Position numbers and translations under genes: made by a program | The notes under the pieces: generated by a model | Database searches by the model: none | What the model saw: the letters and a program-made list of their open reading frames with translations, nothing else | Told to the model about the DNA's origin: nothing | Part shown: positions 4,124-7,289 of the stretch, piece by piece | Position numbering within the stretch: position 1 is the first letter of the stretch | How the letters are laid out: every line of letters starts with the position of its first letter | Assembly: GCA_946478635.1 (NCBI GenBank) | Contig: CAMLCX010000238.1 | Span: 1 to 7,289 of the forward strand | Length of the DNA: 7,289 nt | Origin: an uncultured Pseudomonadota bacterium | GTDB lineage: Bacteria > Desulfobacterota_B > Binatia > UBA9968 | Direction of reading: 5' to 3'

Positions 4124-5131
4124 ATGAATTTCGCTCTCCGTCGTGTGCCGGCATTGCTTCTTTTCTTCGGACTGCTATTTCCCGCCCGGGCAAGTGTAGA
4201 GGCGCAGAATTTGAGAGTGCCTTACGTTTCGCTATCTCCTACGGCAGGACCCTTGTGGATTGCTTATGAAGCGGGATTCTTCAAGCGAAACAATGTCAGC
4301 GCGGAGCTGTTGTACATTCCGGGCGGCTCGACGATTATCCAGGCGATCATCTCGGGCGACGTGAAGATTGCCAATATGGCTCCGCCGTCGGCGATTGGAG
4401 CCTGGGCGAAAGGCTTCGACCTGGTTTTGATCGCCAGCGGCGTCGATCAGCTTTTGGAAACCGTGGTCACTGGAGCCTCGATCAAGACGCCCGCGGATCT
4501 TAAAAATAAACAAATCGGCGTCAGCCGCTACGGTTCGCTTACCGACATGGCGCTGCGCGAAGCGTTGCGCCACTACAAGCTCAATCCGGAGAAGGACGTA
4601 ACGATCCTGCAGACCGGAGGTGAGGCGACCCGCTTCGCCGCGTTGACAACCGGCGCCATCGATGGGGCGATGCTTTCAGGCGATAAATTGGTGCAGGCCG
4701 AAAAATTGGGCTATCACGTCGTCATCGATCTCAGCAAGCTGCCGATTTATTATCCCGTGAACGGCGTGATTACTTCCAGGAAGTTTCTGGCGAGCAATCG
4801 GGACGTGGCCAGAGGTTTTCTCCGCGCTTGGGTCGAGGGCATTAAAGCTTTCAAGACCGACAAAGAGTTATCGGTCAAGGTTCTCGCCAAATATTTGAAG
4901 ATCAACGACCGGGAGATCCTGGAAAAAAGCCACGAGATCTATCGGCCGGTCTATAAGAAAATTCCGTATGGCGATCGCCGGGCGGTGAGATTTGCCCTGG
5001 ACCAGATGAGCAAAGAAGTCCCCGACGCGGCCAAACTGGACGCCGACCATTTCATTGACAACAGTATTCTCGCCGAGCTGGAAAAGAGCGGCTTCATCGA
5101 TCAAATTTATAACGAACCTGCGAAGAAGTAA
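4124..5131 (+). CDS. ABC transporter periplasmic substrate-binding protein, NMT1/SsuA-like (paralogue 2)
   Basis: This is a 335-residue exported binding protein, related to the one at 1055-2104 but clearly diverged. The ATG at 4124 has GAAAGGG at 4112-4118 and begins a textbook signal peptide: MNFALRR, then a hydrophobic run PALLLFFGLLF, then cleavage at ARA-S or VEA-Q (about residues 23-27). The frame runs upstream to 3980, but that extension has no signal-like or family character. The mature part shows LRVPYVSLSPTAGPLWIAYEAGFF (first strand and helix), IPGGSTIIQAIISGDVKIANMAPP, TPADLKNKQIGVSRYGSLTDM (lobe 2), and LTTGAIDGAML, sharing GAIDG with paralogue 1. The C-terminal helices (about 235-335) are charged and typical. 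It is followed after only 10 nt by the VOC gene, so the two are probably co-translated, suggesting that the VOC enzyme acts on the ligand or its product. Ligand unknown. Confidence 0.88.
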   Translation: MNFALRRVPALLLFFGLLFPARASVEAQNLRVPYVSLSPTAGPLWIAYEAGFFKRNNVSAELLYIPGGSTIIQAIISGDVKIANMAPPSAIGAWAKGFDLVLIASGVDQLLETVVTGASIKTPADLKNKQIGVSRYGSLTDMALREALRHYKLNPEKDVTILQTGGEATRFAALTTGAIDGAMLSGDKLVQAEKLGYHVVIDLSKLPIYYPVNGVITSRKFLASNRDVARGFLRAWVEGIKAFKTDKELSVKVLAKYLKINDREILEKSHEIYRPVYKKIPYGDRRAVRFALDQMSKEVPDAAKLDADHFIDNSILAELEKSGFIDQIYNEPAKK

Positions 5132-5141: not shown

Positions 5142-5942
5142 ATGTTCGCAAAGATCAAGCACCTCGCCATCATCAGCGACAACTATGTTCTGTTGAGCCG
5201 GTTTTACGAAGCTCTGTTCGGCATGAAGACTTCGAAATCACCCCGGCCGGAAAGCGCCGTGGCCATTGGCGACGGCTACATCGGCATGAACATCATCCCG
5301 CAGAAACTGGGACGGCAAGCCGGGCTCGAGCATTTTGGCTTGGAAGTCGAAGACGTCGAAAAAGTCAACGCGCGGTTGCGCGAAAAATATCCTTCCATAC
5401 AGCTGATCAAGCGACCCACCAATCGTCCTTTCGCCGGGATCAGCACCCATGATCCCGACGGCTACGTTTTCGATTTATCGCAACAGACCATGGCCAATCG
5501 GGCGGAAGTGTACGTCGAAGGCGAATGGAAGCAAGATCGTTATATCGGCCACTTCGTCCTGCGCTCGTTGAACCCGGCGAATCTCGCCAAGTTTTATCGA
5601 GAAGTCTACGAGCTTCAGGAACTGGAAAAGCCCGCCGACGATCCCAATCATTATTTAACCGACGGGCGTGTGACGATGATTGTTTCCCCGTGGGCGATCA
5701 CCGATTACGAAGGCGCCGGCATCGAACCGCGGCATATGGATCATCTCGGTTTCAAAGTTGAAGACGTGGAGGCGTTCAAAAAAGATTTGAAGGCTCTGGT
5801 CAACAGAAACCCCGCGCTTTCCCCCAAGCCCGGTGGCACCGAAGGCGAGATCAGGCTCAAGCTGCTGGCCAAATGCAAGCACGGCCAATTTCAACTCGCC
5901 GATCCGGACGGTGTGCCCATCGACATTTCCGCGGGCAGGTAA
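5142..5942 (+). CDS. Two-module VOC-superfamily metalloenzyme (glyoxalase / extradiol dioxygenase-like)
   Basis: This 266-residue protein is built of two vicinal-oxygen-chelate modules. Module 1 (about 3-115) begins KIKHLAIISDNYVLLSRFYEALFGM and ends DPDGYVFDLS. Module 2 (about 133-264) begins YIGHFVLRSLNPANLAKFYREVY and ends DPDGVPIDIS. Both keep a full candidate metal triad: His7, His64, Asp111 in module 1 and His137, His201, Asp261 in module 2. The family commonly uses His-His-Glu, so Asp in both halves is a variation. The spacing and two-module size resemble type I extradiol dioxygenases, where normally only the second module binds iron, but the motifs around the ligands are too general to name a reaction; isomerase, lyase or dioxygenase are all possible. 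The frame runs back to 5055 inside the upstream gene, but the Shine-Dalgarno supports 5142. It follows binding protein 2 by 10 nt. Confidence 0.88.
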   Translation: MFAKIKHLAIISDNYVLLSRFYEALFGMKTSKSPRPESAVAIGDGYIGMNIIPQKLGRQAGLEHFGLEVEDVEKVNARLREKYPSIQLIKRPTNRPFAGISTHDPDGYVFDLSQQTMANRAEVYVEGEWKQDRYIGHFVLRSLNPANLAKFYREVYELQELEKPADDPNHYLTDGRVTMIVSPWAITDYEGAGIEPRHMDHLGFKVEDVEAFKKDLKALVNRNPALSPKPGGTEGEIRLKLLAKCKHGQFQLADPDGVPIDISAGR

Positions 5943-6020: not shown

Positions 6021-6027
6021 GAGGAGG
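6021..6027 (+). promoter_or_regulatory. Strong Shine-Dalgarno of the redoxin gene
   Basis: GAGGAGG lies 9 nt before the ATG at 6037. This is the best ribosome binding site in the window. It sits before the short upstream part of the redoxin and not before the ATG at 6202, so translation is expected to begin upstream of the in-frame TGA. Confidence 0.85.
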
Positions 6028-6036
6028 ATTATCAAT

Positions 6037-6594
6037 ATGATCGCCAAACCGAAAGCACCTCGCGTCGGAGTCAAAGCTCCAGAGTTTCTCATCGAAACAC
6101 CGGATGGCAGGTTTCCGCTGCATCAACTGGCGGCGCGGCATGAGAAACTCATTCTCACCACCCAGGATAGTTACCGATATCACCCGAACTGAGCTGCCAG
6201 CATGGCTGCTTCGTTGAAGCAGGACTATGCGAAGATTCTAAAAGCGGGAGCCGATCTCGTCATGATCTCGCCTGATTCTCTCGAAGAACATCGCCAATAT
6301 GCTCTCGCGCTCTTCGGCGAGGAGCTTCCCTACCTCTACGTCTCGGACGGCAGCCTCGACATAGCGCGGCGCTACGGCCTGATCCGCAAGGAAGAACATC
6401 CCCACGGCGGATTCTACTATCGCTCGCTCTGGATATTGAACCGCGACGCGCTGATCACTTACAAGCGCGTTCCCTGGGAAGGCAACGCGGAGGTCAAAGA
6501 GTACCAGAAATTATTCACGCTCATCGGCAGCGAAGCCGGAGAATGGAGAGCCACCTGTGGTTTGAGTGCGCCGGAGAAGCTACACGCAAGCTGA
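6037..6594 (+). CDS. Redoxin (AhpC/TSA/Bcp-like peroxiredoxin), probable selenoprotein with in-frame UGA as selenocysteine 52
   Basis: Reading through one in-frame TGA (6190-6192) gives 185 residues, a normal peroxiredoxin length. Residues 10-24 (VGVKAPEFLIETPDG) are the family start, VGxxAPxFxLxxxDG. Residues 36-51 (EKLILTTQDSYRYHPN) lead to the active-site loop, and residue 52, where peroxidatic Cys is expected, is the TGA. After it come AASMAASLKQDY, then GADLVMISPDSLEEHRQYA (about 71-89), equal to the family GAxVVGISxDS segment, then YYRSLWILNRD (about 127-137), with Arg129 placed like the conserved Prx arginine. The only cysteine is Cys174, near the C-terminus, a possible resolving partner. 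GAGGAGG precedes ATG 6037; ATG 6202 has no good site. A SECIS-like hairpin follows the TGA. The expected role is reduction of peroxide or another oxidant through Sec. The alternative is a nonsense mutation in a Cys gene, but only this one codon is affected. Genome-level selABCD cannot be seen here. Confidence 0.8.
6206..6222 (+). promoter_or_regulatory. Bacterial SECIS-like stem-loop after the in-frame UGA
   Basis: CTGCTTC (6206-6212) pairs perfectly with GAAGCAG (6216-6222), leaving a GTT loop. The stem begins 13 nt after the TGA and the loop G is the 21st base downstream. Bacterial SECIS elements recognised by SelB sit just after the UGA inside the coding region and carry a G at the start of a small apical loop; the E. 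coli fdhF element has its loop G residues at about the same distance. The hairpin is seen directly; its function is inferred. Confidence 0.68.
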
Positions 6595-6802: not shown

Positions 6803-7289
6803 ATGCAGAAACCTCCGGATTTTGAATCGCTCGATCAAATGGCTGAGGCAACCGCCGCGGGTTTGTCGCAGGCGGCCGCGTCTTCGGCGTACGAGCTCTT
6901 TCTGGACAAAGAATTCCGTCGACTGGCCGGTCTTGAGCTGTTGACTCAGGTGGAGCAGGACCGGATCTTCAACGAGCTGGTGGTCGCGTTTCTCGTGCTG
7001 ATCATGCTTCTGCTCGAGGCGCCCGATCTCCGCGTCACCCAGGAATTTCGAAACTATCTCGCCGGTCTTAACCAACGGATCTCTGCAGCGTATATGGAAA
7101 ATCTAACGACCCTGGGCGTGGAAGCCAATCATCTTCGTGACTGGGAGAAACTCATCTCCATGCGCTATGAGGAGTACGCGCGAGATAAGCACGAGGTGCG
7201 CGGGGCGGCGATGCGGATGGAGTCGGCCGAAAAAAGCCTGGACTTGGACGGGCTTTCGAGAATCCAACTGCTCGTGCCGGTGCAAGCCG
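6803..7289 (+). CDS. Uncharacterised helical protein, N-terminal part (3' truncated)
   Basis: From ATG 6803 the frame stays open to the window end, giving at least 162 residues; the C-terminus is outside. I do not recognise the family. The N-terminus is acidic and Ala-rich (MQKPPDFESLDQMAEATAAG). Then comes an amphipathic stretch, and a hydrophobic run FLVLIMLLLEAP at about residues 73-84, which may be one short membrane segment but is more likely a buried helix because it is flanked closely by charged residues. The rest (about 85-162) is rich in Glu, Arg, Lys and Leu, with features such as YEEYARDKHEVRGAAMRMESAEKS, suggesting long helices or coiled coil. No signal peptide and no Cys are present. 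The start is uncertain because no good Shine-Dalgarno precedes it; an in-frame ATG at 6839 is the alternative. Coding is supported by the long open frame and natural amino-acid make-up. Confidence 0.62.
   Translation, partial: MQKPPDFESLDQMAEATAAGLSQAAASSAYELFLDKEFRRLAGLELLTQVEQDRIFNELVVAFLVLIMLLLEAPDLRVTQEFRNYLAGLNQRISAAYMENLTTLGVEANHLRDWEKLISMRYEEYARDKHEVRGAAMRMESAEKSLDLDGLSRIQLLVPVQA

Follow-up and report, generated by a model that had tools for sequence, protein, structure and literature searches.

The gene at 6037–6594 and its in-frame TGA

The window analysed here, a 7,289-nt stretch of contig CAMLCX010000238.1 (assembly GCA_946478635.1) from an uncultured bacterium, carries on its forward strand a frame of 185 codons at 6037–6594. 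Codon 52 of this frame is a TGA (6190–6192), very probably read as selenocysteine (Sec), and the encoded protein resembles peroxiredoxins. The gene is delimited by the reading frame, a Pfam match and a full-length relative, L001. The TGA at codon 52 is the single internal stop, the terminal stop is the TGA at 6592–6594, and neither a second internal stop nor a frameshift is found. The Shine-Dalgarno sequence AGGAGG, read from the sequence, is located at 6022–6027, nine bases 5′ of the ATG. Under the standard code, the sole open reading frame (ORF) in this frame is 6202–6594 (130 aa). In the ORF list it begins at the internal ATG of Met56 (6202–6204), which is also the start of the 120 relatives listed below. 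An earlier note on this DNA had described a lone TGA in an otherwise intact frame, a strong Shine-Dalgarno sequence, and gene callers that give only the 130-residue protein from 6202. All of this is borne out.

Fold and active site

The read-through protein matches Pfam AhpC-TSA (PF00578) over residues 10–142 with 41.9 bits (cut-off 26), and the domain thus runs across the TGA. The other full-length member, the L001 protein, scores 51.0 bits, and both members also match PF08534. In the predicted structure model, the protein folds as a peroxiredoxin, and residue 52 occupies the place of the peroxidatic cysteine. Residue 52, entered as C or X, aligns with the Cys of FTPVC in the solved peroxiredoxins shown, and Cys occupies this column in 8/8 aligned distant peroxiredoxins. 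These alignments agree with the earlier claim that the TGA falls exactly at the peroxidatic Cys.

The residues around this site should be noted. The usual P-x3-T-x2-C is changed to S-x3-H-x2-U, with Ser45 and His49 in both full-length members. The His49 codon (6181–6183) is at the Thr place of PxxxTxxC in the alignments. The earlier note was right that the usual Thr is missing, and the change goes further, the Pro and the Thr both being replaced. Since the motif PxxxTxxC/U is not present, the protein is a variant of PF00578, not a typical member.

Arg129 (6421–6423), the equivalent of the catalytic Arg, is conserved in 120/120 listed relatives. In the distant peroxiredoxins, the column holds Arg in 7/8 and Ser in the remaining one (L011). 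Cys174 (6556–6558) is the only Cys apart from residue 52 and is a candidate resolving Cys, conserved in 119/120 listed relatives. His121 and His123 are invariant. The names peroxidatic, resolving and catalytic Arg denote the roles that we take these positions to have.

Relatives and conservation of the TGA

Among 517 candidates, 374 are relatives of the read-through protein at E ≤ 0.001. The best 120 of the 374 are listed, and some of the remaining 254 may be ordinary peroxiredoxins. All 120 listed relatives start four codons 3′ of the TGA, at the residue equivalent to Met56, with MAASL (n = 117), MTASL (n = 2) or MAASF (n = 1). Since a gene caller would normally extend upstream through a sense codon, this uniform start points, indirectly but repeatedly, to a stop at codon 52. 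Three organism-named relatives with 80–86% identity are labelled as belonging to unrelated phyla (Candidatus Binatus, Terriglobales, and Chloroflexota). These labels suggest horizontal transfer or mis-binned contigs.

Among 23 pattern matches in genome contigs, one is a relative. This is L001, located in a metagenome-assembled genome (MAG), G001, labelled Syntrophobacter sp. SbD2. No relatives are found among 22 pattern matches in viral contigs; the 72,556 plasmid records gave 8 matches at 23.7–29.5% identity, all of which cover less than 80% of the query. The L001 frame also has a TGA at codon 52, and the context DSYRYHPN-TGA-AASMAASLKQDYAKI is common to L001 and the window. The two proteins are identical at 134 of 176 positions over residues 1–176 (76%), and the last nine residues differ.

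In the 51 codons 5′ of the TGA, the window and L001 differ 8, 10, and 31 times at codon positions 1, 2, and 3, respectively. These differences amount to 24 synonymous and 16 non-synonymous codon changes (non-synonymous divergence, dN, 0.19; synonymous divergence, dS, saturated). Codons 53–176 give a dN of 0.12 and a dS of 1.35. The position bias and the dN of 0.19 before the TGA indicate that the half dropped by annotation is a protein sequence under purifying selection. The shared TGA, this bias and the 120 starts after the TGA uphold the earlier argument that chance does not account for a TGA at codon 52.

The window alone is one assembly and would leave room for a TGA that arose by pseudogene decay or through an error of assembly. 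However, the TGA recurs in a second assembly, whose protein is 76% identical and has its N-terminal half under selection, annotation of the 120 listed clusters begins at the equivalent downstream Met, and the frame is otherwise intact. Such an origin is extremely improbable, and the in-frame TGA at 6190–6192 is confirmed as real. Genome-wide reassignment of UGA, for example to Trp, would likewise keep the frame open. Contrary to this, 2 of the 8 window genes examined end in TGA, the Sec-peroxiredoxin-like gene included, and in L001 the gene and its upstream neighbour both end in TGA. Reassignment can hardly be the explanation.

Searches with residues 1–58 of the window protein (2 candidates, E ≤ 0.01) and of the L001 protein (8 candidates, E ≤ 1) gave no scoring full-length relative and no full-length Cys form; they require shared 5-residue words, so that a diverged Cys form could be missed. 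Hence no close Cys/Sec pair is at hand, only distant peroxiredoxins with Cys at the column. The earlier note had looked to homologues with either Cys or an in-frame TGA at residue 52. The TGA with conservation on both sides is found in L001, whereas a Cys-containing full-length relative is not found.

Hairpin downstream of the UGA

A predicted bacterial selenocysteine insertion sequence (bSECIS) hairpin, CUGCUUC-GUU-GAAGCAG, is located at 6206–6222, 20 nt after the UGA. It has a 7-bp stem and a 3-nt loop (GUU, 6213–6215) opening with G-U. Its minimum free energy (MFE) is −7.6 kcal/mol alone and −9.0 kcal/mol for a 24-nt piece. The bSECIS model in the accessible part of a 2026 selenoprotein inventory (PMC13188914) specifies a loop of 3–9 nt, a stem of 4–16 bp, G in the first two loop positions, a spacing of 16–37 nt and an MFE of ≤ −7.5 kcal/mol. 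The hairpins in the window and L001 both lie within all of these constraints.

The strong control for the hairpin is synonymous recoding, and only 1/5000 random synonymous recodings passes the hairpin filter for the window and 1/5000 for L001. Directly 3′ of the UGA, a block of 29 nt is identical between the window and L001, whereas no other such block in the gene exceeds 14 nt; codon-column shuffling produced a run as long as 29 nt 184 times in 20,000. In the window, the folds of three stretches around the site have z values of −1.72, −2.52, and −1.00. The sole Rfam match in the window is sraL at 2717–2862 (20 bits against 39).

The in-frame ATG close after the UGA in both DNA sequences, the Met in 120/120 listed relatives (though their annotation began there) and the 130-aa product predicted by gene callers would also fit a genuine stop, with termination followed by re-initiation at the ATG nine nt downstream to give pieces of 51 and 130 aa. 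This is very unlikely, since no clear Shine-Dalgarno sequence is seen by eye before the internal ATG, the two pieces would part at the peroxidatic residue, so that the conserved Cys174 would lack a partner, and the hairpin would be unexplained.

Selenocysteine machinery in the carrier MAG

The Sec machinery was searched in one genome, G001 (5.6 Mb), the MAG of L001. Its tRNA-Sec scores 73.1 bits against a cut-off of 47 and is typed by ARAGORN as tRNA-SeC with the anticodon tca. The genes selA, selB, and selD adjoin on one contig, all over their cut-offs. The selD gene itself has one in-frame TGA (L048, 1531–1533), followed by bases as in the window gene (TGAGCTGC). The selD hairpin, a weak one, has the same 20-nt spacing as in the window gene, and a 48-nt piece folds at −14.0 kcal/mol. 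The components that the earlier note had named (selA, selB, selD, and tRNA-Sec) are thus all present in the relative's MAG.

A product in which a special tRNA inserts cysteine or another residue at the UGA could still work as a peroxiredoxin. The carrier MAG, however, has SelA and a tRNA typed as Sec with the UCA anticodon, and we regard such decoding as quite improbable. The TGA at 6190–6192 is very probably a Sec codon.

The peroxiredoxin gene of G001 is on another contig than selA-selB-selD. The 4-mer composition of its contig is mostly like that of the bin, with values of 0.93 for L001 to two reference stretches and 0.95–0.96 for L024.

Evidence for and against the selenocysteine reading

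Several observations weigh against the reading of this gene as a Sec-peroxiredoxin. One stretch of the peroxiredoxin contig in G001, L023, is less bin-like, with a 4-mer value of 0.90. Among the sampled genomes of the phylum of G001 (Desulfobacterota by label; overlapping sets of 198, 35, 395, and 148), the family is found in G001 only, and the gene could be in G001 through transfer or mis-binning. Weak matches at E ≤ 0.001 in this phylum come from 2/198 and 6/35 genomes, and all 8 align as ordinary Cys peroxiredoxins.

The other observations concern the hairpin. The filter is loose: in 22 DNA pieces, of which L001 and L024 overlap in part, it is passed by 5537 of 77,425 positions and by 408 of 5574 TGA triplets (7%). 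Codon shuffles pass it in 243/5000 cases for the window stretch and in 765/5000 for L001. The Sec-codon hairpin of selD in G001 reaches only −4.7 kcal/mol in this filter. DNA comes from two members only, and the two are identical over the hairpin, so that they are not independent there and can show no covariation. In the 13 codons that follow the UGA, synonymous changes are not significantly depleted (4/12 versus 63/115; Fisher p 0.23, permutation p 0.13). The same three stretches that were folded in the window are not unusually stable in L001 (z +0.50, −0.83, and +0.42).

The conserved TGA with conservation on both sides, its peroxidatic position and the Sec machinery in the carrier MAG support the interpretation given in the earlier note. 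We consider it highly likely that 6037–6594 encodes a Sec-containing protein of the peroxiredoxin fold.

Comparison with known families

The 2026 inventory contains 119 families or subfamilies, and in its accessible part no entry could be matched to the window protein (PMC13188914). The near entries there are Prx TxxU, Prx-like UxxC/UxxU, AhpC/TSA UxxS, redoxin UxxC, and Prx-SUH CxxU. The UxxS family is placed in PF13911 in the accessible part of a 2022 review. No NCBIfam model (June 2026) reaches its cut-off for the window protein, the best being PRK13190 with 26.7 of 261 bits.

PrxU (PF00578, TxxU; NF040737) is a peroxiredoxin family that shares Sec at the peroxidatic position. However, its PxxxTxxU is SxxxHxxU in the window protein, which scores 16.9 bits against the cut-off of 270. 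In set A2, 17/50 members match this model at E ≤ 1 (best 2.5e-5). The AhpC/TSA UxxS selenoprotein (cd02970/PF13911, AhpC-TSA_2) is peroxiredoxin-like and also has Ser at +3 of Sec, but neither full-length member matches PF13911 at E up to 10. Prx-SUH thiol peroxidase (NF045827, CxxU) is a peroxiredoxin-like selenoprotein as well, whereas the window protein has no CxxU and scores 11.8 bits against 298; 20/50 members of set A2 match at E ≤ 1 (best 0.0062). The archaeal/Prx6-type peroxiredoxins (Aeropyrum ApPrx, 2cv4/3a2v; Sulfolobus, 6q5v) differ in being Cys enzymes of 208–250 residues with 19–22% identity, and ApPrx, unlike the window protein, keeps the Pro and Thr (PADFTPVC). Of 30 papers found with the YHPNU/HPNU motif, the 10 listed have titles on unrelated subjects. 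From the accessible parts of the reviews, NCBIfam and the motif search, we read the protein as a member of an undescribed Sec-peroxiredoxin subfamily, though further family lists may exist.

Gene surroundings

The upstream neighbour, at 5142–5942 on the forward strand, encodes a glyoxalase/VOC-family protein (PF00903). Further upstream on the same strand, Pfam identifies an NMT1/THI5-like binding protein, an epimerase, an SDR, a second NMT1-like protein, and a PNPOx-type protein. The two NMT1/THI5-like substrate-binding proteins (956–2104 and 4124–5131) give weak matches (32.4 and 31.3 of 300 bits) to the model of SaoX, which is the binding protein of a selenoprotein-rich system. The L001 gene starts 11 bases after an upstream ORF, which we take to encode a tripartite-tricarboxylate-type binding protein. 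With two loci only, no conserved operon is claimed. At the other side of the window gene, an ORF of at least 162 aa (6803–7288) runs off the window end and has no match in Pfam (E 0.001) or NCBIfam (E 0.01).

Proposed mechanism and significance

The gene product would be a 185-residue selenoprotein of the peroxiredoxin fold. SelB, carrying Sec-tRNA(UCA), would be recruited by the hairpin just 3′ of the UGA, and the UGA of codon 52 would thereby be decoded as selenocysteine. Sec52, placed where the active-site helix begins, would be the peroxidatic residue and attack peroxide; Arg129 may assist, and so may His49, which stands where a Thr is usual. The resulting selenenic acid may be resolved by Cys174 in the C-terminal tail to form a selenenylsulfide, which a thioredoxin-type reductant would recycle. 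For this cycle in all its details, our confidence is about evenly balanced.

The family might further be a Sec-only branch of the peroxiredoxin fold, comprising at least 120 clusters with no surviving Cys form and with His for Thr (S-x3-H-x2-U), whose site, with Sec52, His49, and His121/His123, may serve a reaction different from ordinary peroxide reduction. We put this forward tentatively, at slightly less than even confidence.

All 120 listed relatives are recorded as fragments, without the half that bears the active site. If the Sec reading is true, they would belong to a new Sec-peroxiredoxin subfamily, outside the 119-family 2026 inventory as far as its accessible part could be matched. 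A family with Sec but with no close Cys form would be easily missed by selenoprotein searches that rely on Cys/Sec pairs. The change from Thr to His at the peroxide-binding position would then amount to a natural experiment with a catalytic motif that is highly conserved.
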